Positions 3 through 61,250 of a DNA stretch of 64,000 nt are shown in pieces. The stretch lies in IMG/VR virus record IMGVR_UViG_3300048586_000548, positions 29,494-93,493 of that record; one strand, 5' to 3'. A program made the translations under genes and the position numbers. The notes under the pieces are model-generated. The model was not told the DNA's origin. It worked only from the letters and a program-made list of their open reading frames with translations, and searched no databases. This stretch comes from a virus. The number at the start of each line of letters is the position of its first letter. Position 1 is the first letter of the stretch.

Positions 3-794
3 GAGCGGTTCAAGGACTTCCACGAAGTGCCGACACGTCGGTACTGGGCGTTCCGAGGTACCCACGCCCACGCCATCGTGGAGGGTGCGCAGGACTTGAT
101 CGCGCAGTACGGCTGGCTGCAAGAGATTCGGATGGCCACGGAGTTGACGTACGATCTGCCGCAGCCCGTGTTCGAGAACGGCGTGTGGACCGGCGACTTT
201 GATTCCACCCAAGACCTGATCATCAAGGTCCGGGGCACGTGTGACGCGTATAACCCGTTGCGGGGTCCGGACTTGGTGGACTGTAAGTCGATGGCGGACA
301 AGAAGGTCGACATGATGATCAAGGGGTCCACCCCCGGCACGTACAGCAAGAACCTGCAGGACAGCTGGGTGGCCCAGCTCAACATTTACCGGTACCTGAT
401 CAGCAAGACCCCGGTGCCTGCCGAGGTGCACGCGGCGTACGCGTCCTTCGGGCTGCCTGCGCTCACGGATCCGTTGTTCCCGGCCCCGGAGCGGTTGTTC
501 ATCCAGGGCATTGCGATGATGTCGCACCCGGTGAGCGGGTCGCGGCTGGCCCACAAGCAGTACGGCAAGTACACGATCTACGACATCGACCACGTGCCGG
601 TGTGGTCGCTGCAGGACATTGAAGACTTCATCCGGCCGCAGGCGCTGATGTGGTACAAGGCGCTGAACATGAAGCAGACCCCGCCGGTGGTCCCGAAGGA
701 CAAGGACTGGCTGTGCCGGAGCTGCGCATTTGAGGGAAAAGACTGCTTCCCCGCGGACGAGCGCGGCCAGGAAGCCCCCTTCCCCGGGCCGTAA
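3..794 (+). CDS. PD-(D/E)XK (Cas4/RecB-like) nuclease, 5' end outside the window
   Basis: The frame is open to the left edge, so the N-terminus is missing; GTG at 27 is only the first start codon inside the window. About 263 residues remain. An RGTHAH segment near the visible start resembles the first histidine motif of RecB/Cas4-type nucleases. VRGTCDAY followed by DLVDCKS gives the acidic residue and D-x-K of the PD-(D/E)XK core. The C-terminus has C-x2-C-x6-C (CRSCAFEGKDC), the kind of cysteine cluster that binds 4Fe-4S in Cas4/AddB-type enzymes; a fourth Cys could lie in the missing part. Phage members of this family process DNA ends during recombination or replication. The stop codon TAA lies inside the GTAAGGT box of the next promoter. 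Confidence 0.8.
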   Translation, partial: ERFKDFHEVPTRRYWAFRGTHAHAIVEGAQDLIAQYGWLQEIRMATELTYDLPQPVFENGVWTGDFDSTQDLIIKVRGTCDAYNPLRGPDLVDCKSMADKKVDMMIKGSTPGTYSKNLQDSWVAQLNIYRYLISKTPVPAEVHAAYASFGLPALTDPLFPAPERLFIQGIAMMSHPVSGSRLAHKQYGKYTIYDIDHVPVWSLQDIEDFIRPQALMWYKALNMKQTPPVVPKDKDWLCRSCAFEGKDCFPADERGQEAPFPGP

Positions 795-815
795 GGTTTT
801 CGTCCGCTCGTCGAA
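791..815 (+). promoter_or_regulatory. Putative phage promoter GTAAGGT-N15-GAA (early + strand operon)
   Basis: GTAAGGT at 791-797, exactly 15 bases, then GAA at 813-815. The same bipartite element with identical spacing occurs on the - strand at 13978, 15606, 28690, 43676, 55551 and 60199, each time ahead of a gene start. This is the only + strand copy and heads the operon starting at 848, 32 bases downstream. The -35/-10 reading is inference from fixed spacing and placement. Confidence 0.65.
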
Positions 816-13953: not shown

Positions 13954-13978
13954 TTCGCTCGGCAGGGCGCCACCTTAC
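13954..13978 (-). promoter_or_regulatory. Putative phage promoter GTAAGGT-N15-GAA (dut/accessory unit)
   Basis: On the - strand GTAAGGT runs 13978-13972 and GAA 13956-13954, 15 bases apart. It follows directly after the terminator hairpin at 13987-14010 and precedes the GTG at 13924, as expected for a new transcription unit. Confidence 0.65.
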
Positions 13979-15581: not shown

Positions 15582-15606
15582 TTCGTCGGTGACGCGTAGA
15601 CCTTAC
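15582..15606 (-). promoter_or_regulatory. Putative phage promoter GTAAGGT-N15-GAA (small-gene unit at 15.5-14 kb)
   Basis: - strand GTAAGGT 15606-15600, GAA 15584-15582, spacing 15. The TAA stop of the upstream gene (15603-15605) is part of the GTAAGGT box. Downstream gene starts at 15571. Confidence 0.65.
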
Positions 15607-17628: not shown

Positions 17629-20600
17629 GCGGGTTCTCCGGCATCTTGGCAGTACGCCACCAGGGCCTCAAACTCCACCATGGGGTCGCCCCCGTAGCCC
17701 GGCATCGCCGGACCATTGGTCGCGGCAAAGGTTTGTACCGTCGCCCCACTGGCGGCGTGGACCAGCCGCACGCGATACATCCAATCCGCCCGGAACAAGA
17801 ACACCCCCGGGGTGGGCTCGTACGACCCGGGGAACTGGATGTCCAGTGGCACGTAGATGCAGTGGCTGAAGTGTTCCCAGCTGGTGTTGGACACCGGCAC
17901 GGTCACCAGCGTGTTCCACACGAACGGGTGCACCGTCGACACGTCGATGGCGATCATGTAGAACGGGCTGGGGAACGACGCGTTCAGCGCGGCACCGTTC
18001 CACGTAATACGTCGCGTGTGGGGGGCCGCACAGTACGCAGGCTTCTCCGTGCCGGGATAGAACACGCAGATCCCGCGGTCCGTCGTCGCCACCGAGGCGG
18101 TGAGCGTCGCCGGTCCCGGCGGCGGTGGGGTCGCCGTGGAGGCCCAATAGACCGCCTTGGCGGTCTTGTAACTGGTGGGCCCGCCCCCAAACGGGGTGAA
18201 CGTCACGGTGTAGTTCCATTCCCGACGCACTGCGTCGGCCACGGAGGACAAACTCACGATGTCCTCGCCCACCGCGTGCAAGAACCCGCCGATGTCCGGG
18301 TCACCCGGCGTCACGCCGCTCGGGTCCATCTGCACATCCCGGCCCGCGACCAGGGAGACGATCGTGCTGGCGGTGTCCGACCGCGACGCCGTGATCGTCA
18401 CGGTACCGGTAGTGCTCGGAAAGATCGGGTAGCGCAGTTCCACGTGGTCGGAGGCAGGCGACGCGGTGGCCGTCGCTTCCTTCAGGCCCGGCGTGGATGG
18501 TCCCCCCGAGACGGACGTGGCAAAGGAGCGCGCCCCGTCCCGTCCAAAGGAATTCTCAGGGATCGCGATGCCGTACCACGTCCCCACGGACACGTTGAAC
18601 GTAAAGTTCGTTTGCGACACGCTGCCGCTGAACCGCAAGTACTTGTTGTCGACCGGGCCGTCCTGCGACCCCTCAGTCGTGGTGGGCCAGTTGCCCTTCC
18701 GCAGGTACACGCGCCAGTACTTGGCGTCGTCGTCCGCGCCGCTGATGCTTGCGGTCACGGTATCGGTCGTCGAATCGTAGCTCAAGGCGAAGCCCAGCAG
18801 GCGCGCTTCCGAGTCCGGATCCACCAGGGCGAGACGCGGGTTTTCCTGCACCACGCCGGTCTTGGTCCCAAAGAACTCGAAATAGAACTCGGACGCTCGG
18901 CTCCGAAACTCCTGCCCCGCGGTTGGCAAGAACGGCGTCACCGTGTCGTCGACGGCGATGTTCGTCCGCACCCGCACTTCCACGGCACCGTCCAGCAGCT
19001 CGTAGCCCTCGGTGTATTCCGCCAAGCGCGGCACCGTGCCGATCAGCGTCATCGTGGTGGCGGTGTTAGCCGCCACCTTCCGGATCACGGGCAAGGGCGG
19101 CTTGTCGGTTTCATCCACCAGGCTCTTCGGCCGAGGCAACAGTCGAATGTAGTAGTGATTCAGTGGTGCGGAGGCGTAGGCGTTCACCGTCCACGCCGCG
19201 AGCCCATCGGTCAGCAGGGTGTTGCCTTCCACCGTGCTGAGGCCTGTCGTGTCGCCTGCCGACACCACCGCAGGCAGCGGCACCACGGAGAAGGTGGCAC
19301 GCACCGTGTTCTCGCTGCGGTCGCCGTTCTCGTCCTTGTTGTCGAACGTGACGTACGAGCGCGGGGTCCGCACCAAATTCCGGGTCACCGTACCGCCCGC
19401 GGTGCCCTCCGTCTCGCTGGCCCCCGTATTCCACCCGGCGTAGGGCACCAGCGTCAAGGTCTTCTGCTGGCCCAGCGTCAAACTCACCGTGCCGGTGACG
19501 CGCTTAAAACTGCGGGTGTCCACGTGCCGCGGCACCAGCTCGGTGGGTTCCGGGGGCACGGCCCCCGCCGCAGGCGGATCGACGTACCACTTCACCCCCA
19601 GGGTGTCATCATCCACCACCGCGACGAACGTCACGGTGTTGTTGCTCGGATCGATGGACGTTTCCAGCGACGTGATCGACGGGGTGGAGTCGAAGTCCAC
19701 CAAAAAGGTCAGGGTGTCGCTGTCCAAGTCGTTCGCGTCGGTCGCCCACACCCGAATCCACATGTTGTCGGACTGCCGCTCGAGGGGCACGAATCGCGAC
19801 CGCACGCCGAGCGGGTCGTCCAGCACGGCGTCCAGGGCGTTGTCCACCAGGAACGGGAAGTCTTCCGCCTGCTGCGGCACCGGGAACAGCACGCGCGGCG
19901 TGGTGTCACCCTTCCGCTGGTAGTACAGCGACACGCCCTCGAACGCGGCTTCTTCGGCGGCCATCGGGCTGTAGGCAAAAATTTCCACGAGCGCGTACTT
20001 CGCAGGATCGTTGTACGGAGCCCCGAAGAACGTCTGCTCCGCCGCCACCAGCTGCCGGAACGCCACCACCGGGCCCACCGGGGTGTCCGGGTTGACCACG
20101 TCGTCCGCGGGCGTGTAGTTCCACACCGCGGCGTCGCTCATGGGCTGCTCATTGCGGGACCGGTCGAAGCTGGCGAAGTAGTACGGGCCGTAGTCCTCGG
20201 CGAAAAACGACATTTCGTCTTCGCGGTCAAACAGCCCGAAGTCCGTCATCACCTTATAGTCTTTGTAGATCAGCAGCGCCGTCCCAACGGCTGGGCCAAC
20301 CGGGGGCGCAAACGGATCCGCGCTGTTCCCGTAGACCTCTGGGGACTGGTTCAGCGTGATCGCCCCCGCCGTATTGGAGACCACCGTGTACACCAGCGGG
20401 TCGTCGCCAATCTGCACGTTGAAGCCAATCAGTGCGTCAACCTCGAGCTCCGGGTCGTCCACTTCGACCACGGGCCCTGTGACGGAGAACACCTCGTAGG
20501 GGTACTCGTCGTCGGCGGCACCATTCATGATGTCTTCGCGGTAGTACACGTTCACGCCCTGGTAATCGCGGTCATCCGGTGTCTTAAACCGGACAATCGC

Positions 20601-21752
20601 AATCTTATTGATCACCTTCGGAAAGCCTTCCTCGAAGACAATCGGTCCCGGCGCGAAGGTGTCACCTGCCACCACGTACCGCACATCGCTCAGGCCGGAC
20701 AGCACAGCTTCGTCCAGCAGGCCCACCGACTGCAGCGCGTACTCGTAGGGCAGCCCCGCCACCACGGCCAGGTCCTTGTATTCCATGACTGGAGCGCTGC
20801 CGGTGCGGGCGATCCGGATCAGCTCGCTGAACGAGCCCACTGCCGCCTGGGCGCCCACCCAGCCCGGATCAGACTCGCTGAACCCCAGTGGGAGTCGACA
20901 CCGCACCTCGGTGTTCTCGTCGTCATCCAGCTGCACGCGCACCACGGTGCCCACCGCATACGAGCCCGACAGCAGATTGGCGCCCGTCGCGATGGTGCCC
21001 GTGTGGTCGCCCTTGATGGTGACCACGAACTGATCGTCCAGCGCCACCGCGCCGACCGTCAAGATCAGTCCGTCGTCGTCCACCAAAGTGCCGATATCCG
21101 TCGGGGTCCGACGCAGCACGCGGTACCCCCCGGCGGTGGCCGCGGCGAACCACGTCAGCGTGTTCACCGCCGCCCCGGTCTGGGCGTCCAAGTACCCCGT
21201 GCGCAGGTTCTGCCACACCGGACGCGGCGGGCTTTCCGACAACCCACTCAGGGGCAGCGACACCGGCACCTGCACCGACGTGCGTGGGGCCTGCAGCAGC
21301 ACCGCCACCACGTACCGGCCCGGAGGAAATTGCAGCGGAATCGAGCCACTGCCCTGCCCGCGGCGCACCAGTGTTTCGTCGACGTACACCGCGTACTTGC
21401 CGCCGCTGCCCCCGAGCTCGAGCTGCAGATTCGCCGACACGGACTTCGGGGTATCGACCACCGCGCGGAGCATTTGCACCGTGCCCGTCGGCGCCGTAAA
21501 CGACACAAATCCGTCCGCGCACTGCAGCAGCGCACCGCGGCCGGTCGCCGACAAGAACGCCTGGTAGAACTCTTCCAGCTCCGGCAACACCGTGCCCGGA
21601 AGTTCCAGCAACAGCCAGGACTGCCCACTACCGTCGTTCAGCGCCGACAAGTCGCTCTGCACGGCACCGTACCAATTCCCGACCGGCCCGCCGATCTTGT
21701 TGGTATCCTGCCGAATCAGCTTGCGGACCATTTCCAGCAGTGACAACGCCAT
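17625..21752 (-). CDS. Large tail protein with fibronectin-like repeats (1375 aa)
   Basis: 1375 aa following the hub gene. The N-terminus (LLEMVRKLIRQDTNKIGGPV) looks like an attachment segment. The rest is a chain of beta-sandwich units with recurring patterns like SYVTFDNKDENGD, WRVYLRKGNWP and YYIRLLPRPK, as in fibronectin-III and Ig-like domains of siphophage central fibres. No enzyme motif seen. It probably forms the long tail-tip fibre or its collar. Confidence 0.7.
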   Translation of the reverse strand: MALSLLEMVRKLIRQDTNKIGGPVGNWYGAVQSDLSALNDGSGQSWLLLELPGTVLPELEEFYQAFLSATGRGALLQCADGFVSFTAPTGTVQMLRAVVDTPKSVSANLQLELGGSGGKYAVYVDETLVRRGQGSGSIPLQFPPGRYVVAVLLQAPRTSVQVPVSLPLSGLSESPPRPVWQNLRTGYLDAQTGAAVNTLTWFAAATAGGYRVLRRTPTDIGTLVDDDGLILTVGAVALDDQFVVTIKGDHTGTIATGANLLSGSYAVGTVVRVQLDDDENTEVRCRLPLGFSESDPGWVGAQAAVGSFSELIRIARTGSAPVMEYKDLAVVAGLPYEYALQSVGLLDEAVLSGLSDVRYVVAGDTFAPGPIVFEEGFPKVINKIAIVRFKTPDDRDYQGVNVYYREDIMNGAADDEYPYEVFSVTGPVVEVDDPELEVDALIGFNVQIGDDPLVYTVVSNTAGAITLNQSPEVYGNSADPFAPPVGPAVGTALLIYKDYKVMTDFGLFDREDEMSFFAEDYGPYYFASFDRSRNEQPMSDAAVWNYTPADDVVNPDTPVGPVVAFRQLVAAEQTFFGAPYNDPAKYALVEIFAYSPMAAEEAAFEGVSLYYQRKGDTTPRVLFPVPQQAEDFPFLVDNALDAVLDDPLGVRSRFVPLERQSDNMWIRVWATDANDLDSDTLTFLVDFDSTPSITSLETSIDPSNNTVTFVAVVDDDTLGVKWYVDPPAAGAVPPEPTELVPRHVDTRSFKRVTGTVSLTLGQQKTLTLVPYAGWNTGASETEGTAGGTVTRNLVRTPRSYVTFDNKDENGDRSENTVRATFSVVPLPAVVSAGDTTGLSTVEGNTLLTDGLAAWTVNAYASAPLNHYYIRLLPRPKSLVDETDKPPLPVIRKVAANTATTMTLIGTVPRLAEYTEGYELLDGAVEVRVRTNIAVDDTVTPFLPTAGQEFRSRASEFYFEFFGTKTGVVQENPRLALVDPDSEARLLGFALSYDSTTDTVTASISGADDDAKYWRVYLRKGNWPTTTEGSQDGPVDNKYLRFSGSVSQTNFTFNVSVGTWYGIAIPENSFGRDGARSFATSVSGGPSTPGLKEATATASPASDHVELRYPIFPSTTGTVTITASRSDTASTIVSLVAGRDVQMDPSGVTPGDPDIGGFLHAVGEDIVSLSSVADAVRREWNYTVTFTPFGGGPTSYKTAKAVYWASTATPPPPGPATLTASVATTDRGICVFYPGTEKPAYCAAPHTRRITWNGAALNASFPSPFYMIAIDVSTVHPFVWNTLVTVPVSNTSWEHFSHCIYVPLDIQFPGSYEPTPGVFLFRADWMYRVRLVHAASGATVQTFAATNGPAMPGYGGDPMVEFEALVAYCQDAGEPA

Positions 21753-21755
21753 CGC

Positions 21756-24700
21756 TTAGCTCCCACCCCGGCGCGCTGGTACCAAGACCAGGTGCGTCGC
21801 CAAATAAGTCGTCTGTGCCAGTGCCTTGCCCACGGCCACTGGCTGATGTCCGGTCGCGAACGGGGACAACAGCGTTGCCTCGAACTTTTCCGAACTGTTG
21901 TGGCCGAACGCCCATCCCGAGAGCAGTGATCCGCCCGTGATGTCGTCCTTCCAGCCCACCCATGCGCCCGCGTCGTACCGCACGCTGTTGTTCACCGAGC
22001 TGCCCTGGTAGCGCGTGCGCCACCAGTACGCAGCGGCGTACGCTTCCCGGCCACTCTCAAAGCTGGGGAACAGTCCGGGCGATTCCCACACGTACTCGGA
22101 CCGGAACTTCAGCCCAAACCATTCCAGCACATTGGTATGAAACTTCGGATACGCAGGGTTCTTGCGCGCCATGCCCGTGACAATCTCTTCGTACACATAG
22201 TTGTTGATGTAGTACGGCCCCGACGGCGCAATTTTGACCGGGGCTTCCCCGGGGCGCTTGTTGCGGCTGTACATCCCGCGCAGCTCTTCGTAATGCGTCC
22301 ACTCGACCTGCCGCACGTAATCAAGGGTGTCGCCAGTAACGGACAACGCGCCCGACCCTACGGCGAGCTTAAAGGGCCACTGGCTGGCGTCCACCTTGGA
22401 CTTCGGCCAGAAGCGCAGCGGAGAGCCCGTCGGCTCGCGCACCGGGCTCGACCACACTTCGGCCGCCGCGATGTCCGCCCCTTCGTTCTTCTCTTGCCCG
22501 TCCACCTCGCCCACGTAGTCGTGCCGCTCACTCTCGGTCGTCGCAAAGCAGTAGAACTGCCGCAAGTCGATTTCAGAGTTCTCGGTCAGGTTCAACGCGG
22601 CGTAGCTCGGCGTTTTGGTGCCCAAGTACCGCGGCACGCACATCGGCGGCACCAGGTGGTACGGATGCAGATCTCGGCTGATCGACGGCACCCACGTGGG
22701 ATTGGTCTCCCACGTCCAGGTGCCCAGCGCGGCGGGGAGTACCCGGTTATTGGTCGCCCACTGCGCGGGCATGATGCTATCGGCCAGTCCCAAGTGCGCG
22801 ATGGTGTACTGGTCCGCGGCCAGTCCGAGGGTGAGCCACGGCTCCTGGGCGAACCCGATCGTAGTGGCCAGCCCGCTGGTCGTCATCTCGTGCTGCCACC
22901 ACCAATGCTCCAGCAGGTGGTCCAACAGAGACCCCGAGCTCGCGCCGTGCGCCGCCAACTGCCCCGACTTCCACCCCGGCTCCTTGGTCCACTGGCGACA
23001 CACCACCGTACGCCGGTGCGCGTACATGGCATCGTCTTCCCACGTCACCGCCGTGGTCTGGTTACTGATCTTGGCCTGGTCCACGAAGCTGCGGTTGATG
23101 CCCCAACTGGATCGTCCGGACCGGTCCGTGGCGTACGCCGACAGGTAGAAGAGGTAGCTCATGAGTGCGAAGTTCAACCGCGCGCGACCTGAGGCGATGC
23201 CCCGGGTCTCGGACCAACCCGGCACCTCCTCGAGCTGCAAGTAATCGCCGAATTCCAGCGACTGCGGCAACCCAGTGAACTCGAAGGCCGCTCGGAAGTC
23301 CTGCGGGCGGAACACCCACTCGGTGACCCCCGCGTCACCGTCGGTCCACTTGAACGTCTTCGCCTTGCGGTACCCCTGGTCATTGAAGCTCAGGGTGTGC
23401 TCGTCATTGTGCAGCAGCCGGTTCACCAAGATGCGCTGCTCGACCGTCGTTTCCGGGTACACTTGTCCCGTGAACTGTGCCGACTGGTCGCCAATGATTG
23501 CCTTGAGGTGCACCTGGCGATTCAACTTCACTGAAATTTCCGACGTCCGGCCCGCCCACAGGCCCCCGGGGCGATCCGCCACCTTGAAACGCACGCGCAC
23601 GGGCTTGTCGTTGGCGATATACGCAGCAAGACTCGTCTTCGACCCCGAACCGCCCGCGGGCGTTTCCCAGCCGCCCGTACCGCCCGGAACGTAGCCGCCC
23701 GCGCTGGTCCAGTCGTCGATCTTGAGCTCGATCTTGGTGGGCTCCGGCAGGTGCGTCAGCACCCGCAACTCGGGCAACGCCAAGTCCTGATCGTCGATCA
23801 GCCGCAGTTCCGCATCCACCGGATCCGTCAAGGCCTCGAGGTACACAAACCACTCCCCGAACGTCCCCTGCCCGATCAGCGGCTTGCCGCTACCGTCCAA
23901 GCCGGTCCACACCACCGCCAGCTCGCCCAGCTTGCCGCCGCTGAGCTCTTGGTTCCAGGCATAGAAGCCCTTGCCGATGCGCGGCCGCTGGTCCGGCTCG
24001 AACGTGCCCTCCACCAGCGTGGCGTACAGCTCGGACTGCGTGGCATTCCACTCGCCCAGCTGGTCCACGCCGTCCCACTTGAACTGCCGCTTAGCGCCGA
24101 CCGTCAGGTACTGCCAGTGCCGCTCCGGTTCGGCTGGGTCGGCCGTCGGCTCGGTCAACCAGGCCACGATCGTATTGTCCACCGCTGAACGCACCGACAA
24201 TCGGTAGAGCCCGTCCGCCAGGACGTCCATCTGTGCGGTAACGACCTCCCCCAGTTCCGAAGCGTACGGGTCGTAGAACGGGCTGTACGGCAGGGTATTG
24301 CTGAGCGGCACCTTCGCGGCCGTGTACGGCTCTGCGCTCGCCGCCATGCGCCGGTACCGGACGTTGAACGTCGGGTACGCCGGGCGGGCGAAGCGCGCCG
24401 CGACGCCGTCACCCTGCTTCCACGGCAGGGCGAGCTGCGGCGTCGCGTAGTCCACAGTGAAGAATTCATGGTACGGCGTGTTGGCCAACCATCCGGACAG
24501 CGCGCCCACCACGTGACTGCCGTTCACGCGCGCGCGCCAGTCGATACCCAGTGTGACCGGATACTCCAACGTAAACTTCTTGCCCACGCGCACTTCCACC
24601 GCACGATTCCCGGTCCGGGGCACCGTGACGATTTCGTAGTAGAACAACCCCAACTTGTCCGTACCCGCCGGGAACATCTGGCCGGACGGCAACTCGGCAA

Positions 24701-27617
24701 ACGCCGCAGTGAGCGTCGTGTCGGACCCCAGCTCAACCCGTCCCACGAGCATTCCCTGCTTCGGGACCGCCGGGCCGTCAATAAACGCTGAGTAGAGGGT
24801 CACACTGGTCGGGGCCACGCCCGGAGAACCCGTCGGACTGATCTGCACCGTCCCAGGCTGCGGGGGCCACGGCGCCCCGCCCGGCAGGACCAACGACGGC
24901 ACGCCGCCAGGGCTGGTCACCGGCACGTTCGCGTACTCCACGATGTCCCCGCCTGCCGCCACCGGCAGGTCCTTGCTCGGGATGTACGCCTGGCTCGTCG
25001 GGTTCAGGACCTTGTGGCCGCTGACCGAGGTGTAGCCAATCTGCATGCGCGCAATGGGCCGGTTACCGAACTTCGACAAATCGATGTCCGTCCGGGGCTC
25101 ATACGCCGGGTAGTCCGGCCACGAGTTGGTATCAAGCGTGGTGCGGAACCGATTGGGCTGCAGGGTGTGCGTGACCTTGCGCACAAACTGCGTGGCCGTG
25201 GTGTTTGTGGTGTCGTAGCGTGTTTCGGCGACCGCAATCGGATCGCCCACTTCCACCATCGGCAGCAGCGGGTGTTCCACCGTCGTGCCCGGAATGGGCA
25301 CGGACTGTCGATAGATAAACGTCTGCGCCAAGTAGTTGGCGAAGCCGTCGTCCGCAATCGAGTCGTCGTAGATCACCGCGTGCTTCGGGTAGCCCACGTG
25401 GTTCTTGGCCAGGGGGTTCACGATCGACTGCAGATCCACCGCGTTGGCCACCACGAACTCAGTTTCCGTCGGCGCCTTGGCCTCTTCGAACTTCTCGCTG
25501 TCCGTGATCGCCGCCTTCTTGCGGCCCACGATCGTGACCTTGTTCCGCACCTCGTCTTGCTGCGCGCGGGTCGTCACGGTCAGCGCCGTGTCGTCAGTCG
25601 AAAGCGTGGGCAGCTTGGTGCGCAGCGGGTCCTGGGCGTAGCAGAGCAAGCAGTCGATGTACGACTTGGTGCCTCCGCTCAGGGTATCCGCCGTCAGTGT
25701 GACCACGTACTCGTCGTAGTCGCCGGAGAACAGCGTCGCCACCGTCGGGTTGGACCCCTGGGCAATCACCGGGCTGTTAAACAGCAATCGCGGGTCTTCC
25801 AGCACGTCACCGGACACACTCGGGTTCACGGTGCCCGTCGCGACCGGATCGCCGCCGCTCGACTTGCTCACCGAGATCTCCCAGGCCCGCGCATCAGCGT
25901 TCCGTGGAAAGGCCGCGTCAATGCGCGAGGCCCGCACCGTCGCCTGCACGGTCACCGGGTCGGTGGTCGTGAAGTACGTGGCGCCGTAGGCCGACGGATC
26001 CAGTTGCTCCGTCAACGTGCCCACCGTTGCGTTGAGTTCGGTCAGCTCCTCGATGTACGTCGGCAAATTCGCGGGGCGCAAGAACGCAGCTCCCGACGCA
26101 TCGAAGCCGCACAAGTACCCCAGCCGGTCCGTCAGCTCGCGCGTGCGGGCCCACAGGTCCTTCGTGGGCTCCACCACGAAGATGTATTCGTCGTCGAACG
26201 GCCGCGATTCCGTGAAGCTGAAGCCCACGTTGCCGTAATGCACCGGGCGCGGCAGCTTGAGCCGCAGCCCCTTGGTGGACACCGCCCGGAAGCGTGGCAA
26301 GGTCGAACCGCGGACCAGCACCGGCGTGCCGAGGCCGTTCGACTGCACGGCCACTTCGGTGCGGCGGTAGCAGCTGGGGTCCACGCCTGCCCGGACGCCC
26401 ATCTCCTCGACGGCGTACGCCAGCGGCCAGTTGTCGAAGGCCGGGACGTTGTACACCGGCTGGGCCCGCTGTCCCGGCTCTGCGTTGAACAAGTCCAGCA
26501 GACGGAAGCCCCGGGCCATGTAGCTAATGCGATCGGGCGTCTGCTCGTACTGCTCGACCATGCGCCCCTCGAGCCCGACACACGTGATCGTCAGCTTGCC
26601 GTCCGAGCCGGATCCGAAGTCGTCCACAAAGCCCGTGAAGAGCGGTGTGTATTCGTCCAGGGTGTCGGGCCGTGCGACGCGGATCTGCACCAGCCGCTTG
26701 CGTCGCAGCGAATGCTGCAACGACCCGCCGTCGTACACGTCCAGCTGTCCCGGGTCCGAGGTCAGCGACGGGCGGTTGAACACCCACCCATGCCCGTCGT
26801 TGTTCTCGGGGTTCAGCAGCGGCACCACGACTTCTGCGCGGCTCGCCGCGCCCGGCTCCTGGGTGATCGACGCGCTCAGAATGAACGGCAGCACGGCCGC
26901 CTCGAGCGGCGCATCGGCCGCGAACAACGATGCGCTCAGGACCGGCGCTTCGGCCGTGGCCCGCTCGAGCTCGTCGTCCGCGGGCAGTGCCCCCGGCAGC
27001 GCCTTGACGACCAGCCCACCCCAGGGCTCGGTGCCGGACTGCACGTAGTAGACAAACAGCTCGTCGTCGGGCAGGAAGGTGTGGGTCGCGGAGTAGCTGA
27101 AGCCGTCGATCACGAAGCCCACTTCGCTCAGGTCGTCGGCGAACAGGTTCGTGGTTACCCCGCCCCGCACCACGTCAATCCGAACGAAGCCACTCCCAGC
27201 CAGCCCAAACGTCAGCGTGTCGCTCCCCGGCAGCCAGGCCCGCATCGCGGACGGCAGCAGCACCCCGGAGAAGCACACCGCCACCTGGCCCGGCGTGGAC
27301 ACACCCCACCAGCCGGGGGCGCCGCTGCCCCAGTACGACTGCACCACCGGCCACCGGCCCGTGCGCCCCGCGCCCTCGTACACCACCGGACGCGACAGCC
27401 CGCTCAGGAAGTCCGACTCCGGGTTCGACGACGCCTGCAGGGCGGCCACGTAGGTGCCCCAGCTCTCACTGGTGACGGCCTCCTGCACCCGGAGCCGCAT
27501 ACCGGTCGTGGCCTTCCCGTCCTCCAAGGAGGAGTAGGGCGTGTCCCACGCGGCCACTTCAAACTGCCACTGCTGGTCGACGCTGAAGAACGCCGCCGCG
27601 CTGGGCACTGGTTGCAT
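21756..27617 (-). CDS. Tail hub / tail-tip attachment protein (1953 aa)
   Basis: Very large protein directly after the Dit-like gene. Residues about 100-200 (GFVRIDVVRGG through HTFLPDDELFVYY) look like a PA14/jelly-roll insert. Residues about 255-380 contain QIRVARPD, LFTGFVDDFGSGSDGKLTITC and VGLEGRM, typical of the phage tail hub (gp27/Tal-like) fold that caps the tube. The C-terminal half is long and Trp/Tyr-rich and may bind receptors or penetrate the envelope. No clear lytic domain is visible. Confidence 0.7.
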   Translation of the reverse strand: MQPVPSAAAFFSVDQQWQFEVAAWDTPYSSLEDGKATTGMRLRVQEAVTSESWGTYVAALQASSNPESDFLSGLSRPVVYEGAGRTGRWPVVQSYWGSGAPGWWGVSTPGQVAVCFSGVLLPSAMRAWLPGSDTLTFGLAGSGFVRIDVVRGGVTTNLFADDLSEVGFVIDGFSYSATHTFLPDDELFVYYVQSGTEPWGGLVVKALPGALPADDELERATAEAPVLSASLFAADAPLEAAVLPFILSASITQEPGAASRAEVVVPLLNPENNDGHGWVFNRPSLTSDPGQLDVYDGGSLQHSLRRKRLVQIRVARPDTLDEYTPLFTGFVDDFGSGSDGKLTITCVGLEGRMVEQYEQTPDRISYMARGFRLLDLFNAEPGQRAQPVYNVPAFDNWPLAYAVEEMGVRAGVDPSCYRRTEVAVQSNGLGTPVLVRGSTLPRFRAVSTKGLRLKLPRPVHYGNVGFSFTESRPFDDEYIFVVEPTKDLWARTRELTDRLGYLCGFDASGAAFLRPANLPTYIEELTELNATVGTLTEQLDPSAYGATYFTTTDPVTVQATVRASRIDAAFPRNADARAWEISVSKSSGGDPVATGTVNPSVSGDVLEDPRLLFNSPVIAQGSNPTVATLFSGDYDEYVVTLTADTLSGGTKSYIDCLLCYAQDPLRTKLPTLSTDDTALTVTTRAQQDEVRNKVTIVGRKKAAITDSEKFEEAKAPTETEFVVANAVDLQSIVNPLAKNHVGYPKHAVIYDDSIADDGFANYLAQTFIYRQSVPIPGTTVEHPLLPMVEVGDPIAVAETRYDTTNTTATQFVRKVTHTLQPNRFRTTLDTNSWPDYPAYEPRTDIDLSKFGNRPIARMQIGYTSVSGHKVLNPTSQAYIPSKDLPVAAGGDIVEYANVPVTSPGGVPSLVLPGGAPWPPQPGTVQISPTGSPGVAPTSVTLYSAFIDGPAVPKQGMLVGRVELGSDTTLTAAFAELPSGQMFPAGTDKLGLFYYEIVTVPRTGNRAVEVRVGKKFTLEYPVTLGIDWRARVNGSHVVGALSGWLANTPYHEFFTVDYATPQLALPWKQGDGVAARFARPAYPTFNVRYRRMAASAEPYTAAKVPLSNTLPYSPFYDPYASELGEVVTAQMDVLADGLYRLSVRSAVDNTIVAWLTEPTADPAEPERHWQYLTVGAKRQFKWDGVDQLGEWNATQSELYATLVEGTFEPDQRPRIGKGFYAWNQELSGGKLGELAVVWTGLDGSGKPLIGQGTFGEWFVYLEALTDPVDAELRLIDDQDLALPELRVLTHLPEPTKIELKIDDWTSAGGYVPGGTGGWETPAGGSGSKTSLAAYIANDKPVRVRFKVADRPGGLWAGRTSEISVKLNRQVHLKAIIGDQSAQFTGQVYPETTVEQRILVNRLLHNDEHTLSFNDQGYRKAKTFKWTDGDAGVTEWVFRPQDFRAAFEFTGLPQSLEFGDYLQLEEVPGWSETRGIASGRARLNFALMSYLFYLSAYATDRSGRSSWGINRSFVDQAKISNQTTAVTWEDDAMYAHRRTVVCRQWTKEPGWKSGQLAAHGASSGSLLDHLLEHWWWQHEMTTSGLATTIGFAQEPWLTLGLAADQYTIAHLGLADSIMPAQWATNNRVLPAALGTWTWETNPTWVPSISRDLHPYHLVPPMCVPRYLGTKTPSYAALNLTENSEIDLRQFYCFATTESERHDYVGEVDGQEKNEGADIAAAEVWSSPVREPTGSPLRFWPKSKVDASQWPFKLAVGSGALSVTGDTLDYVRQVEWTHYEELRGMYSRNKRPGEAPVKIAPSGPYYINNYVYEEIVTGMARKNPAYPKFHTNVLEWFGLKFRSEYVWESPGLFPSFESGREAYAAAYWWRTRYQGSSVNNSVRYDAGAWVGWKDDITGGSLLSGWAFGHNSSEKFEATLLSPFATGHQPVAVGKALAQTTYLATHLVLVPARRGGS

Positions 27618-28665: not shown

Positions 28666-28690
28666 TTCGTCGAAGCTAGGGAAACCTTAC
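28666..28690 (-). promoter_or_regulatory. Putative phage promoter GTAAGGT-N15-GAA (tail tip unit)
   Basis: - strand GTAAGGT 28690-28684, GAA 28668-28666, spacing 15. The TAA stop of the tape measure gene (28689-28687) lies inside the box. Confidence 0.65.
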
Positions 28691-43651: not shown

Positions 43652-43676
43652 TTCTGCCCCGCACCAACGACCTTAC
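43652..43676 (-). promoter_or_regulatory. Putative phage promoter GTAAGGT-N15-GAA (connector/tail unit)
   Basis: - strand GTAAGGT 43676-43670, GAA 43654-43652, spacing 15, about 40 bases ahead of the ATG at 43611. It lies wholly in the intergenic gap after the capsid gene. A short CACTA/TAGTG hairpin follows the GAA. Confidence 0.65.
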
Positions 43677-49548: not shown

Positions 49549-51628
49549 TAGTTCCCCCTCCTACACGAGTCACCACCGCGCCAATTGGCGGAGGCGTATC
49601 TTCGATCATCCGTTGCCGAATGGTATGGGCCCGCATCTGTTTGGCGGCGTAGATGTAGGCCGCCCACAAGTCCTTCTTGTTCCCGCTCTGCTCCACGTCA
49701 CCCTTCATGTAGAAGGTGCGGAAGTTCTTCGTCGGTTTCTGCTGCAGCGCGCGCAGCTGGTGCGCCAGGATCTTCGCCCCACCGAACCCCACGTCCAGCT
49801 TGACATCGAACGGGCGCTCCGACTCCGGGATATCCTTCGGCAGATACAGCAGCTTCTGCGTCATCTGACTCAACGTGAATTCGACCAGTCGGTCGTTCAG
49901 CTGGTCCGTCGGATAAATGGCGTCCAGCATCGGCCGGGCGCGTGGATCCGTCGCAAAGGCTTGCACCCGCTCGTCCGCATCCAGCGGGTCGTAGATGCGA
50001 TACTCCTCCGGCGCCAGCAGTTCACGGTTCAGGTGAATCAACTCGTCGCGAACGCCTGACCCGCCGCCCCGCATGTCCAGACCAATGGCGCGACACAGCT
50101 TCCACGTGTCGGTCTCATATGGGTCGTGGTGGAACGCCAGGTTGTAGCGATCGGACAGCTCCCAGATCTTCGCGGCCACGTCGGCGTGGCTGGTCATCCG
50201 GTGCTGCTCCGCCCAGACCACATTGCTCCAAGGCGTCTTGCCCAGCCCGGTGATCGGGTTGAACTCACCCTCGGCGCAGGGGCCCACCCGCATCACGACC
50301 AGGGCCGAGAAGTCGCGGCTTCCTGGGGCGTAGTCCACCCCCAGCACGCAGGGGTCCGGACAGCTCCACATGACCGTCGGGGCATAATGGATCTCCGTGT
50401 CCGGGTACTTCTTCGCCCACTCCGGTCCGCAGTCTTCTCGGGAGATCGCGTACCGCGCTCCCTTGCACGCGGCCGCGTCGACCACAAAGTGCGGGTACAC
50501 ATCTCCCGTCGAGGTGTCGACCACATTGCGCTGCTCCGACAGCCAGATCGCTTCCGGGGTCTCACCGGACAGGAGCTTATCTTCCACGTTCCGATTGATC
50601 GGGTACGTGCTGATGATCTCCATCGGCCGGGCTTCCATCCGCATCCGACCCTTCGTCCCGCGCCGCGTGAACGGAATACCACGGGGATCCCGACGGAATC
50701 GGCGCGTCTTGTCCGGCCACGTGACCTCGAGCTTCCGCCCGTCACGGGTCAAGACATGGCGCCGCACCAGCGTGTCGGTGTAGTCAAACGACACGTACAT
50801 CGTCTGCAGCAGGCCCTTCTTGTTCAGTGCATCGAACGCTTCGATGTCCCCGGCGCGTCGCGCCTCGAGGGCCGACAGATCCCGCGCCATCCCGTCGTAC
50901 GCCGCGGTCGCGGTGCGCTGGAAGTCCCGCCAGCCGTAGTCGATCGTCGTGGTGTAGAACACGCAATTGCTCGCCGCATTCTCGCCACCCGTCTTGAAGT
51001 CCCCCAGCACGTTCAGGAAGCTCAGCGCCACCTTGTCCATCAGCTCGAAGTCCGTGAAGTTCGCTTCGTCGATGTACAAGTCGTGCCCACGGATGCCGCG
51101 AATCTTCTCCGGGTCATTCGTCGGCACGGTCATCAGCGACGAGGCCGAGGTCAGATCGATCTGCCAGAAGTTCTGCTGCCGCAGGATGATCTTCTCGTAG
51201 ACCACACTTCGCCGGATGAACTCGAGCCCCGACTCCTGGTCGGCCCAGGCTCCCTGAATCCACTTCTCAGCGTCGTTGTACAGCAGCTGGCCGCCTCGGA
51301 ACCCTCCTGCGGACAGGGTCACACCCTTGCGCTTTGGGAAGAACAATCCCCGGTACACGGCCCCCAGCACGTCCACCACCGCGGACTTGGAGGTGCCTCG
51401 GCTGCACACAAACACCGTGCTCGGCGCGCTCAGGTGCATGGCGTACAGCATCAGCCGCTGGTGCGGGGGGATGAAGATGCCCGACAGCGAACGCAACGTG
51501 ATATCGGGCCATTGGCGCCACCGGAGCAGCGGCTTGTAGATCACCTCAGCGGCGATCTTCTCTTCAGCCGTCTGCGCCGTAGCCAGGATCTGGTCCAAGG
51601 GCCTCGTCCACGTGCTAATCGCGAGCAT
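49526..51628 (-). CDS. terL: Terminase large subunit
   Basis: 700 aa from ATG 51628, which overlaps the upstream gene by 14 bases. ATPase: SRGTSKSA (76-83) is a Walker-A-like loop of the R-G-x-S-K-S type, HDLYIDEAN carries Walker B Asp187-Glu188. The nuclease domain starts VLGVDYAPGSRDFSALVVM, with later acidic residues in AFHHDPYETD. It packages DNA into the prohead through the portal and cuts at the end. Neighbours (putative small subunit, portal) agree. Confidence 0.93.
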   Translation of the reverse strand: MLAISTWTRPLDQILATAQTAEEKIAAEVIYKPLLRWRQWPDITLRSLSGIFIPPHQRLMLYAMHLSAPSTVFVCSRGTSKSAVVDVLGAVYRGLFFPKRKGVTLSAGGFRGGQLLYNDAEKWIQGAWADQESGLEFIRRSVVYEKIILRQQNFWQIDLTSASSLMTVPTNDPEKIRGIRGHDLYIDEANFTDFELMDKVALSFLNVLGDFKTGGENAASNCVFYTTTIDYGWRDFQRTATAAYDGMARDLSALEARRAGDIEAFDALNKKGLLQTMYVSFDYTDTLVRRHVLTRDGRKLEVTWPDKTRRFRRDPRGIPFTRRGTKGRMRMEARPMEIISTYPINRNVEDKLLSGETPEAIWLSEQRNVVDTSTGDVYPHFVVDAAACKGARYAISREDCGPEWAKKYPDTEIHYAPTVMWSCPDPCVLGVDYAPGSRDFSALVVMRVGPCAEGEFNPITGLGKTPWSNVVWAEQHRMTSHADVAAKIWELSDRYNLAFHHDPYETDTWKLCRAIGLDMRGGGSGVRDELIHLNRELLAPEEYRIYDPLDADERVQAFATDPRARPMLDAIYPTDQLNDRLVEFTLSQMTQKLLYLPKDIPESERPFDVKLDVGFGGAKILAHQLRALQQKPTKNFRTFYMKGDVEQSGNKKDLWAAYIYAAKQMRAHTIRQRMIEDTPPPIGAVVTRVGGGTNGRRRFF

Positions 51629-52700
51629 CGTCCCCCTCGACCGCCTCCGGCTCCGCGGCCTCCGCGGCCTCCGCCTCGTCGTCCGTCTCAGGCGGCTCGT
51701 CATTAGGCACTTCCCGCAAGAAGCCCTTCTCGCCCAGCCAAGTCTCGATCTCCTCGACCTTCAGGCCCGCGTAATTCTTCGTCCCACACGTGGCACAGCT
51801 ACAGGTGCGGCACCGGGTCAGCCCGAACAAGCCCACCTCGTCCAGCTGGTGCCCGCCCATGTTGTGGCGCGGACTCGGCGTGTGGTACATCTGGAAGAGC
51901 ACCAGCAGCTCTTCCGCGAACCACCGCTCCCGCAGCTCGATTGGATGGGCCTCGTCCAGACGCCGCACCGCCTCGCCGATCGTGCCGCCCTCCTTGTCCT
52001 TCGCCTGCTTGGCCAGCTGGTCCGGGTGGATGTTCAACGCCTTTTCCAGCTCCACGATCTGCTTGGTCAGCGCCTGCATTTGCAGCTCGGTGGCCTTGTC
52101 CTTGTCGTTCTTCGCCTGACGGAACCGCATGCGGTCCAGCATCAGGGTCAGATCCAGCAGCATGTCCAGCTTGGACTCGGACGCCACCGACCGCAGCTGC
52201 GGGAAGTCCTGCAGATAGGCTGCCTTCAACGACTCGCGCCGCTCGAGCTCCTTGGTCGTGAAGAACACGAGCGGGTCGTCCCCATAGGTCGCCTCGCCCG
52301 CGAGCTGCTTGCGGTACTCCACCGGCAGGTTCTTGTCGACCTTGGCCTTGTCCGCCCGGACCTTCGCGAGTTCCTTCTCGCGCTCTTTGCGCGCCTTCCG
52401 CTTTTCGTCCGTTGTGACCAGCGGCTGCATCTTGTTCAGGTCAAACCGACACGCCGATCGCACCCGACTGTTCAAGGTCGCCGTCGCCATCGTGGTCCAC
52501 GGCGTCACACCGTCAGAGAGTTTGACCCCCCGCAGGCAGCAATCCAGGGCGTACTTCGCCGCCGCCACCGGCTCATCCGTCTTGCGGATCTTGGCGAACC
52601 AGTCCGCGATCGCCAGGATCGCCGCGTTGTAGCGCTCCGGAGAAATGTCCGGGCCCACCTCATAGGTGGTCATGCTCGGCACCAGTACTGACTTAGCCAC
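51615..52700 (-). CDS. Putative terminase small subunit (361 aa)
   Basis: ATG 52700, two bases after the sigma-like gene ends. Position directly upstream of terL is the main argument. Middle region is a long charged coiled coil (TTDEKRKARKEREKELAKVR, about residues 95-125). A cysteine cluster near the C-terminus (CRTCSCATCG, about 298-307) could bind zinc, and the end is acidic. It is longer than usual small terminases, so it may be a different packaging partner. Confidence 0.5.
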   Translation of the reverse strand: MAKSVLVPSMTTYEVGPDISPERYNAAILAIADWFAKIRKTDEPVAAAKYALDCCLRGVKLSDGVTPWTTMATATLNSRVRSACRFDLNKMQPLVTTDEKRKARKEREKELAKVRADKAKVDKNLPVEYRKQLAGEATYGDDPLVFFTTKELERRESLKAAYLQDFPQLRSVASESKLDMLLDLTLMLDRMRFRQAKNDKDKATELQMQALTKQIVELEKALNIHPDQLAKQAKDKEGGTIGEAVRRLDEAHPIELRERWFAEELLVLFQMYHTPSPRHNMGGHQLDEVGLFGLTRCRTCSCATCGTKNYAGLKVEEIETWLGEKGFLREVPNDEPPETDDEAEAAEAAEPEAVEGDDARD

Positions 52701-52702
52701 GC

Positions 52703-53092
52703 TTACTCCCCCTCCACCCCGTCATCGTCGCGCTCCGCCACCCGCCGTGGGACCGCCACACGACCTCGGGTGTAGTTCATCACCAGGGCGAGTTCCCCAG
52801 GCGCGCGTTCGACGATTTCTTCCCCCACTTCCATGCGAGCATCCAGCGACTCCGTTGACGACAGCTTTTCTTTGCGCAAGAAGTCGATCATGCGGAACTT
52901 CACCGACTGGCGGATGAAAGCGTCCGGATTGTCCCGGGCCAGCCTGGGCTGGCAATTCCACAAAGCGACCAGGCCCTCCTGGTACAAGTCCTCAACCAGG
53001 GCGTCGTTCGTCATCGCCAGCTTGCGCGCGATGGCGCGAATGACCGACTTGTACTTCGGGTAGTACGTGGCTTCAAATTCTTCATTGGTCAT
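52703..53092 (-). CDS. Sigma70 region-2-like protein (half of a split sigma factor)
   Basis: 129 aa from ATG 53092, with GGGAGCGG upstream. Residues about 10-80 match sigma region 2: YYPKYKSVIRAIARKL (2.1), VEDLYQEGLVALW (2.2, the core-binding D-L-x-Q-E-G signature) and FIRQSVKFRMIDFLRKEK (2.3-2.4, which melts and reads the -10). The remaining 45 residues show no region 4 helix-turn-helix. The gene just upstream is region-4-like. In Bacillus, RsoA (region 2) and SigO (region 4) form one working sigma in the same gene order. Confidence 0.75.
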   Translation of the reverse strand: MTNEEFEATYYPKYKSVIRAIARKLAMTNDALVEDLYQEGLVALWNCQPRLARDNPDAFIRQSVKFRMIDFLRKEKLSSTESLDARMEVGEEIVERAPGELALVMNYTRGRVAVPRRVAERDDDGVEGE

Positions 53093-53176
53093 CCGCTCCC
53101 CAGCCTTCTGCGCCTGTATTAGGTCGTGCGCATACCATTTCTGCCGCAATCCAGACGATTCCGGTGGATTAAGTGG

Positions 53177-53440
53177 TCAATCGGAGTGCAATGCGGCCAG
53201 TTTACGAAGCGCCGCAGCACTGATGTAGCGAATGGCGGCTTCTGAGAGGGGCTTGCCGCGGAATCGCGAGCCCACGTACCAGCCGACCGAGGCATACGTC
53301 GGAGGCCAGCGCTGGTCAGGCCACGGCCAATCGGTCGGGCGGTAGATGCCATAGACCAGCTCGAGGACCAGGCGATGCTCCGGGCCCAGCTGCGCCAAGA
53401 GCTGCTCCACCGCCACCCGGTTCAACACGACGTCTTCCAT
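53177..53440 (-). CDS. Sigma70 region-4-like protein (other half of a split sigma factor)
   Basis: 87 aa from ATG 53440, with GGAGG seven bases upstream; the ATG overlaps the ruvC stop. Pattern: VEQLLAQLGPEHRLVLELVYG (4.1-like), a Pro/Trp-rich insert, then YASVGWYVGSRFRGKPLSEAAIRY followed by AALRKLAAL, the helix-turn-helix spacing of region 4.2, which contacts the -35. The insert between helices is longer than in standard sigma factors. With the region-2-like gene 84 bases downstream it would make a bipartite sigma. Confidence 0.65.
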   Translation of the reverse strand: MEDVVLNRVAVEQLLAQLGPEHRLVLELVYGIYRPTDWPWPDQRWPPTYASVGWYVGSRFRGKPLSEAAIRYISAAALRKLAALHSD

Positions 53441-54120
53441 CACGCAGCCTCCTCCGCCGTGGGGGCCTCGTGGCTGCGGTACAACACGTGCCAGGCCCAG
53501 TTCAGCGCGATCGCGTCTGCGTCATCGTCGTCGCTGAACTGCTTCTTGGTGTCGTTACCCTCAAAGCGCAGGCGAAGGCCGAAGGTCTTGTTGACCAGGG
53601 CCACCACGATCTTCTTGTTGTCTTCGTGAGAGCGGCCGCGCGTGGCCTTGATCGCCTTCTTGACCAGGTGCGCAGCCACCGCGCACTCCTTCTCGATCTC
53701 CAGCCCATAGTGCGCGAAATGCGCCGCCTCGATCACCCCGACGTACCGTGTCAGGATGCCGAAGGTGTGACGCATGCGTCCCTGGTAGGGCGCCTCGTAC
53801 ACCACCACGTGCGGCGCCCACTGGTGGAACATCGCGAGCAGCCAACTCCGAAACGCGTTCAGCCGCTCGCCGTGTCCCTTCCCCTCCTGGAGATACCGCC
53901 CGTAGGCGACCAAGTGTCCGTCGTCAAACACCGCCCAGCCACACGCCTTGGAGCTCGAGTCCAGTGACAGCACCCGCTCGGCGATTCCGACCCCCACGAA
54001 CGCTGCCGTTGGAGCCGGGCGCTTCGACACTCGCTTCCGCTTCGCCTTGGCCCGTGGCGGCGTGGCCACCTCGGGGCGCAGTTTCAGCCGCTCCTTCTTG
54101 CCCTTACGCCGGGTCGGCAT
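53440..54120 (-). CDS. ruvC: RuvC-like Holliday junction resolvase
   Basis: 226 aa. A basic N-terminal extension of about 45 residues (MPTRRKGKKERLKLR) precedes the RNase H fold: VLSLDSSSKACGWAVFDDG (first catalytic Asp), VVVYEAPYQGRM (Glu), and DDDDADAIALNWAW (C-terminal Asp pair). It resolves branched replication/recombination DNA before packaging. Located just before the sigma pair and terminase genes, as in other phages where resolvase feeds packaging. Confidence 0.85.
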   Translation of the reverse strand: MPTRRKGKKERLKLRPEVATPPRAKAKRKRVSKRPAPTAAFVGVGIAERVLSLDSSSKACGWAVFDDGHLVAYGRYLQEGKGHGERLNAFRSWLLAMFHQWAPHVVVYEAPYQGRMRHTFGILTRYVGVIEAAHFAHYGLEIEKECAVAAHLVKKAIKATRGRSHEDNKKIVVALVNKTFGLRLRFEGNDTKKQFSDDDDADAIALNWAWHVLYRSHEAPTAEEAA

Positions 54121-54794: not shown

Positions 54795-55238
54795 CTATTC
54801 GGGCGAGCCCTTGCGCTTCGTGGTCGTTCGCTTCTTCGTCGTCTTCGGCTTCGCGGCCTTGACCGCCTTCACCGCCGCCCGCGCCTTGGCCGGTGCCACC
54901 GTCACCTTGGCCTTGCTCTTGGGAGCGGCCTTCTTGGGTGTCGTCGACGCCTTGCGCGCACGCGCCCGCGTCTTCGTCACCCCGGCCTCCGCCACTTCGT
55001 CAGGCGCCGCGGGCACCTTGCCCCACGGCTCCTTGCCTTCGCCCGCAGGGGGCGGCGGCGGGGGCGGAGGCGTCGCAGGCCCCGGAACCACCGGCGGGTT
55101 CGGCACGGGATCCCCGGTGCCGGGGTTCGTCGCGCGATAGCGCTCGCGGAGCAGTTCGGCCTCCGACTTCGTGCGCGGCCGAAAGGTCAAATACAGCCCC
55201 ACCCCTCCGATAACGATCAGCGCAAGTGCTTCAATCAT
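54795..55238 (-). CDS. Membrane-anchored Pro-rich protein with histone H1-like tail (147 aa)
   Basis: ATG 55238 with GAGGAG eight bases upstream, overlapping the zinc-ribbon stop (ATGA). Residues 3-20 (EALALIVIGGVGLYLTF) are one membrane helix. A Pro-rich stretch follows (about 48-70), then a Lys/Ala-rich C-terminus (SKAKVTVAPAKARAAVKAVK, KTTKKRTTTKRK) with the composition of histone H1 tails, which bind DNA non-specifically. It could tether phage DNA or replication complexes to the membrane. No family recognised. Confidence 0.6.
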   Translation of the reverse strand: MIEALALIVIGGVGLYLTFRPRTKSEAELLRERYRATNPGTGDPVPNPPVVPGPATPPPPPPPPAGEGKEPWGKVPAAPDEVAEAGVTKTRARARKASTTPKKAAPKSKAKVTVAPAKARAAVKAVKAAKPKTTKKRTTTKRKGSPE

Positions 55239-55429
55239 TCGACAAACTCCTCTTCGCCTTTCGGCGCCCGTAGTGACTTCTGTCGTCCAGCCCCGGCGCG
55301 CGCGTCCAGCACCGCGTCCGGCTCCCATCGTGCCCCGCAGTCGCCGCAGCGCAGCACCACCCAGCTGCCTCCCACGGGCACCGCATCCGTACTTCCGCAG
55401 AGGGGACAATCCTCGACCTGGGATTCCAC
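55235..55429 (-). CDS. Zinc-ribbon protein (64 aa)
   Basis: Starts MESQVEDCPLCGSTDAVPVG and has a second C-x2-C (RCGDCGARW) 17 residues later, a full zinc ribbon, followed by a basic/acidic tail. First gene after the promoter at 55551; its stop overlaps the next ATG. May act as a transcription or replication adaptor; no family assigned. Confidence 0.65.
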   Translation of the reverse strand: MESQVEDCPLCGSTDAVPVGGSWVVLRCGDCGARWEPDAVLDARAGAGRQKSLRAPKGEEEFVE

Positions 55430-55526: not shown

Positions 55527-55551
55527 TTCCCCGACCTTCCCGAGACCTTAC
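55527..55551 (-). promoter_or_regulatory. Putative phage promoter GTAAGGT-N15-GAA (middle/late unit)
   Basis: - strand GTAAGGT 55551-55545, GAA 55529-55527, spacing 15. The TAA stop of the upstream gene (55550-55548) is in the box. Downstream lies a 98-base leader with a TGTGGG/CCCACA hairpin and then the genes leading into ruvC, the sigma pair, terminase and capsid. Confidence 0.65.
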
Positions 55552-55826
55552 AAGTCGATGATCCGAAACTGGATGCCGCAATCCAGGCAGTGCAGCTCGC
55601 CCTCCCCGTCGTACGCCTCCTCGTCCAGCATGACATGCACGCTCAGGCAGGCCAGGCACACCGGAGTTTCCGCAGGAACGTAGATCAATTCGCTGACGTA
55701 CTTGGTCTCATCGTACATCCGCCGCACCAGTCGTCGTTCCCACACCCGCGGGTCCTTCTCGGACCGGCGCCAGATCATGGTCTGGCGCGCCTCGCCTCCC
55801 TGCGGCCCGAACGGGCCGGGCGTCAT
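55548..55826 (-). CDS. Small zinc-finger protein downstream of DNA polymerase (92 aa)
   Basis: ATG 55826 overlaps the polymerase stop (ATGA). N-terminal half basic (WRRSEKDPRVWERRLVRRMY), C-terminal half has CLACLSVHVM and CLDCG, two C-x2-C pairs about 25 residues apart. Coupled to polymerase, so probably replication-linked. No family recognised. Confidence 0.65.
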   Translation of the reverse strand: MTPGPFGPQGGEARQTMIWRRSEKDPRVWERRLVRRMYDETKYVSELIYVPAETPVCLACLSVHVMLDEEAYDGEGELHCLDCGIQFRIIDL

Positions 55827-60143: not shown

Positions 60144-60174
60144 ATGCCCCCAAGCAGAAGTGGCCCACCTCGCG

Positions 60175-60199
60175 TTCCGCGAAGTGGACCACACCTTAC
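60175..60199 (-). promoter_or_regulatory. Putative phage promoter GTAAGGT-N15-GAA (replication unit)
   Basis: - strand GTAAGGT 60199-60193, GAA 60177-60175, spacing 15, 31 bases before the GTG at 60143. A near-perfect inverted repeat (60165-60174 / 60178-60187, one mismatch) is centred on the GAA box and could be an operator. Confidence 0.65.
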
Positions 60200-61225: not shown

Positions 61226-61250
61226 TCCCTCGAGTAGACAAGGACCTTAC
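61226..61250 (-). promoter_or_regulatory. Variant GTAAGGT promoter (GGA in place of GAA)
   Basis: - strand GTAAGGT 61250-61244, then 15 bases, then GGA 61228-61226. It lies 31 bases before the ATG at 61194, the same distance as two perfect copies. One mismatch in the second box. Confidence 0.5.

Follow-up and report, generated by a model that had tools for sequence, protein, structure and literature searches.

On RNA polymerase, region 2 of sigma factors contacts the beta' clamp helices and recognises the -10 element, and region 4 makes contact with the beta flap tip and recognises the -35 element (PMC7892883). ECF sigmas carry both in one chain, as region 2, a linker of fewer than 50 residues and region 4, and the hallmark of their -10 element is CGT (PMC8103513). 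In the SigO-RsoA system, one operon (yvrI-yvrHa) encodes region 4 and region 2 as two distinct proteins; transcription requires both of them, and the targets include this operon itself (PMC8103513, PMC10028694). The pair is listed with 22.54 and 9.00 kDa in a 2023 table (PMC10141391), and it has already been used as an AND gate in synthetic biology (PMC10028694). In phage T4, gp33 is structurally unrelated to sigma region 4 and has no DNA binding of its own (PMC7892883). Within the literature searched, Bacillus SigO-RsoA is the only sigma made up of a region 2 and a region 4 subunit, and no phage sigma described as bipartite, split or composed of two subunits was found.

Two adjacent phage genes suggest a two-piece switch which redirects the host RNA polymerase to phage genes. 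The reading preferred here, with a probability of about three in four, is that their products constitute a two-subunit sigma for the host polymerase and read the two-box promoters of the phage. The window analysed (64,000 nt) corresponds to bases 29494-93493 of a 93,493-bp virus record (G000), whose left 29 kb received gene calls from a model trained on well-supported genes. G000, a tailed phage distant from the cultured ones, encodes a DnaB-like helicase, a DNA polymerase and a long tape measure protein. Two proteins of 1375 and 1953 aa encoded near the tape measure gene (window 17625-27617) have no PHROG match.

On the minus strand the gene order is a RuvC-like Holliday junction resolvase (53440..54120; PHROG 159, E 1.8e-15), the region 4 protein r4 (53177..53440, 87 aa), a gap of 84 nt (53093..53176), the region 2 protein r2 (52703..53092, 129 aa), a 361-aa gene (51615..52700) and a TerL-like gene. 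The ATG of r4 overlaps the TGA of the RuvC-like gene. The 361-aa protein is 75-77% conserved in the relatives and family searches gave zero matches for it; perhaps it is a small terminase subunit. The TerL-like label derives from inspection of the sequence and from the neighbourhood, with matches to named families being absent.

The relatives are three metagenomic phages, of which G002 is nearly identical, and G001 and G003 show 60-69% protein identity in r2 and r4. Scans of viral contigs with r2, r4, TerL and the helicase, both as single proteins and as alignments, returned the same three and one extra helicase match (L074, 25% over ~90 residues). No relatives were found among the GTDB genomes scanned, and tblastn against phages produced weak matches at best. 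The sigma of Streptomyces phage TG1 was considered as a parallel pair and rejected, being a single 390-aa gene.

The r2 protein matches the Pfam profile Sigma70_r2 (PF04542) with an E-value of 7.6e-11 and 42.1 bits, above the cut-off of 24, and contains EDLYQEG. The same profile is above its cut-off in all four phages, in a single copy in each. The best curated NCBIfam matches are models of ECF-type sigmas (E ~1e-7 to 5e-7, below their cut-offs). Identity among the orthologues is 60-62% across the full alignment; the acidic C-terminal tail is poorly conserved, and the proteins differ near regions 2.3-2.4, where RKEKLSST is found against RKERIYNT. The AF2 model (pLDDT 57) is too poor for fold search, and no meaningful match to a sigma structure was obtained. 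Judged by its sequence, the 129-aa protein is with high confidence a stand-alone sigma region 2.

The case of r4 leans on its predicted fold. Its match to Pfam Sigma70_r4 (PF04545) covers residues 15-35 with E 0.0032 and 17.4 bits, under the cut-off of 24.1; one orthologue scores 17.0 and one has no match, so sequence by itself cannot settle region 4. An AF2 model built from only three sequences has four helices and a pLDDT of 84.6; two of the five models agree at ~84 and the remaining three score 50-62. When this model was compared with the PDB by Foldseek, the best 50 neighbours were nearly all sigma region 4 (probability ~0.8-1.00), including SigA, RpoD and a mycobacterial sigma in complex with its anti-sigma factor. 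The E-values start at 0.09, with none below 0.05, and singly they are non-significant for a chain of this length; the weight of the fold evidence lies in the uniformity of the neighbour list. Among the viral neighbours are sigma factors as well as further short region 4 proteins. The orthologues are 63-69% identical, and the C-terminal block RGKPLSEAAIRYI is invariant in the protein alignment. With fairly high confidence, the 87-aa protein is predicted to be a stand-alone sigma region 4 of divergent sequence.

The preliminary description of this DNA had placed the two sigma halves at 53177-53440 and 52703-53092, and these coordinates are right. Its assignment of region 2 is confirmed by the profile; that of region 4 stands by the predicted fold and is left short by the Sigma70_r4 score. 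It was to fall if Pfam profiles showed no similarity to regions 2 and 4, and such similarity is present. The phage bipartite sigma which it proposed gains support from the region 2 profile, the region 4 fold and the preservation of the pair in three relatives.

With r4 placed 5' of r2, the pair runs opposite to the region order of a normal sigma gene. G000 and its three relatives all keep this order, with both genes intact and separate. The dN/dS ratios of the two genes are ~0.08-0.21 and are rough, since several dS values are near saturation. The gap between the genes contains the block ACGACCTA(A/G)TA, conserved in the relatives (window 53093-53176; L007 6447-6548; L048 6468-6569), and an inverted repeat in it, CGACGAAAA...TTTTCGTC, is common to G001 and G003.

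A promoter-like element, GTAAGGT-N15-GAA, had also been pointed out in the preliminary description, and it is borne out by counts. It occurs exactly seven times in the window, and with one mismatch allowed ten times against 1.16 expected. Across the whole record there are ten exact copies at spacer 15, against a mean of 0 in Markov simulation; of the remaining spacers between 8 and 23, only 14 and 20 are represented, by a single copy apiece. All 12 sites in G000 follow the local transcription strand, which is plus up to ~36 kb of the record and minus beyond, and at most of them a start codon is located ~50-80 nt from the start of the site. On this statistical footing, confidence is high that the element is real.

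Several elements have orthologous counterparts in the sister phages. The plus-strand element at 791..815 corresponds to G001 13665 and G003 80895. On the minus strand, the element at 13954..13978 is orthologous to G001 20800 and G003 67723, that at 15582..15606 to G003 65859, and that at 43652..43676 to G001 56058 and G003 33121. The element at 60175..60199, positioned before the DnaB-like helicase/primase gene, corresponds to G001 74967 and G003 14170. Three more are found on the same strand: 28666..28690 lies directly 3' of the tape measure gene, whose stop codon is the TAA of the motif; 55527..55551 lies upstream of the gene run with RuvC, r4, r2 and terminase; and 61226..61250 has a GGA variant of the -10 half. 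Beside the 55551 promoter are encoded two small cysteine-rich, zinc-ribbon-like proteins (window 55235-55429 and 55548-55826). G002 has four element sites (71301-75324) which are absent from G000; they stand in an arm of its own, so that the two phages differ in their arms and share the core.

At up to eight of 11 G000 sites (e.g., 791, 15606, 28690, and 55551) the preceding frame has its stop codon in the TAA of GTAAGGT, and part of the -35 conservation could thus have a second cause. Hairpins are also seen at some elements. The one at 60175..60199 overlaps a 15-bp hairpin (window 60165-60199), and hairpins with stems of ~10-15 bp overlap elements at G003 14170, 27829, 67723, 76616, and 77911 and at G001 1538 and 16990. 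T runs often come after them, and the -10 half is situated within the loop or next to it; at these sites a promoter and an upstream terminator appear to be merged.

Were the element read by a two-piece sigma, a related and perhaps shifted element would be expected in the relatives. In the sister lineage the element has another -10 half. A search over all two-box words in G001 and G003, with both strands counted, placed GTAAG-N15-GTCAA among the top motifs of both genomes. It has nine exact copies in each, against 0.05-0.1 in simulation, and none in G000; conversely, the GAA type is absent from G001 and G003. The final AA of the -10 half stands in identical register in both lineages. Six of the 12 G000 sites (record coordinates 30284, 43471, 45099, 73169, 85044, and 89692) have a partner with the other type of -10 half at the orthologous gene in G001 and/or G003, the call for 85044 (window 55551) resting on neighbourhood and partial downstream similarity. 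This is an indication that, at the same promoters, the -35 half was kept and the -10 half was switched, which strengthens the link to these promoters made in the preliminary description. The switch counts as a single evolutionary event, shared by the two sister genomes. In a scan of 2.9 million viral contigs, a stringent form of the G003 motif recurs in this lineage only; five other viral contigs with one stringent match each fit chance.

If r4 and r2 are separate chains, the two halves of the motif are predicted to evolve separately. The constant block of r4 and the variation of r2 near regions 2.3-2.4 agree with such an assignment of boxes and are no proof of it. It is somewhat favoured that the constant -35 half is read by the region 4 chain and the -10 half, which differs between the lineages, by the region 2 chain, with specificity evolving in modules. 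We propose that this modular evolution of promoter specificity follows from the two readers being separate proteins.

We infer that the two proteins bind the core, act jointly and read the element. The r2 protein would bind the beta' clamp helices and would read and melt the -10 element; the beta flap tip would be the binding site of r4, which would read the -35 element. As a pair they would steer the host core to GTAAGGT-N15-GAA in G000 and to GTAAG-N15-GTCAA in the sister lineage, and the promoters so defined would drive replication, structural and other operons. The 55551 promoter would drive the gene run containing r4 and r2; with an element upstream of their own genes, positive feedback is likely.

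Other readers were searched for in these phages. No second sigma-like gene was found. The region 4 match at 1842-1904 of G003 was rejected, as it looks like an excisionase-type HTH. No T7-type polymerase was found by a search that detected T7 itself as a control, and no Rpb1-type subunit was found either; very divergent polymerases, of the giant-phage kind, would escape these searches.

Alternatives to the two-subunit sigma concern the origin of the pair, the nature of the element and the identity of its reader. That r4 and r2 are remnants of one decaying sigma gene is hardly credible: two half domains do adjoin, but the region order is reversed relative to a sigma gene, which argues that the pair is not a broken one, and both genes remain intact and separate in four of four phages with dN/dS of ~0.1-0.2. 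The element might instead mark gene ends, as a stop codon combined with a terminator, since a long open frame stops at its TAA at up to eight of 11 sites, and terminator-like hairpins with T runs behind them overlap several sites, most of these in the sister phages. This is very unlikely, however, because the TAA is not the stop of a long frame at three of the 11 G000 sites, a strong hairpin is missing at most sites, terminators do not feature a second, lineage-specific box at a fixed N15 distance, and start codons follow downstream at a promoter-like distance.

A different proposal is that r2 alone is sigma-like, as T4 gp55 is, and that r4 is an unrelated HTH protein, for instance a DNA-binding protein with a packaging or accessory role near the terminase. 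Generic HTH proteins are frequent near terminases; r4 is located two genes before the TerL-like gene, and its region 4 sequence score is weak. Against this, its neighbours by fold belong to sigma region 4 in particular rather than to HTH proteins in general, and the strong, conserved -35 half needs a reader for which a second region 4 candidate was not found. This proposal seems quite improbable. It is likewise improbable, if a shade less so, that a host alternative (ECF-like) sigma reads the elements and that r2 and r4 act otherwise, for instance by adjusting or blocking host sigmas. The sister -10 half, CGTCAA, does resemble that of ECF sigmas, and the element is tied to r2 and r4 by inference. 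Yet the -10 half and the r2 and r4 proteins both changed between the sister phages (a change of host could mimic this), a stringent form of the motif recurs in no viral contig outside this lineage, and with its own sigma halves and a private element spread over the genome the phage makes a host factor unnecessary. The two-subunit phage sigma is therefore retained as the best explanation.

A phage example would show that a sigma cut into two chains still runs a large part of a genome programme. The separate change of the -10 and -35 halves permits direct swap tests of the chain-to-box assignment, and small two-part sigmas are useful as AND gates in synthetic biology.

Similarly to the present pair, SPO1 gp33 and gp34 are products of adjacent phage genes, the smaller first, annotated as sigma accessory and sigma factor. 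However, gp34 alone has region 2 and a weak region 4 similarity, whereas gp33 forms its own family (PF25742) without a region 4 match; r4 does not match PF25742, and hhalign aligns it to gp33 with a probability of 0.6%. T4 gp55 and gp33 are likewise a phage-encoded pair, in which one protein confers promoter specificity and its partner binds the flap, with the sliding clamp gp45 as activator. The phage described here differs from T4 in its promoters, which have a strong -35 half, and in the partner, which has a predicted region 4 fold and thus, on the model, would not be unrelated to region 4 as gp33 is.

The likeness to ECF sigmas is found in the best NCBIfam matches of r2, which are ECF-type, and in the sister-lineage -10 half, which contains CGT; the latter agrees with the former. 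On the other hand, the -35 half differs from AAC, a reported ECF hallmark, and the phage has two chains in reversed order instead of one.

SigO/RsoA resembles the phage pair in that regions 4 and 2 belong to different proteins, the region 4 gene (SigO, YvrI) being named first. It is a chromosomal stress system of Bacillus, whereas the present pair is encoded by a phage. The phage pair matches no SigO- or RsoA-specific NCBIfam model, and its longer chain is the region 2 protein (129 aa), compared with the tabulated 22.54 and 9.00 kDa of SigO/RsoA. By this comparison, which concerns the way of working and implies no kinship, the phage pair would work most like SigO-RsoA.
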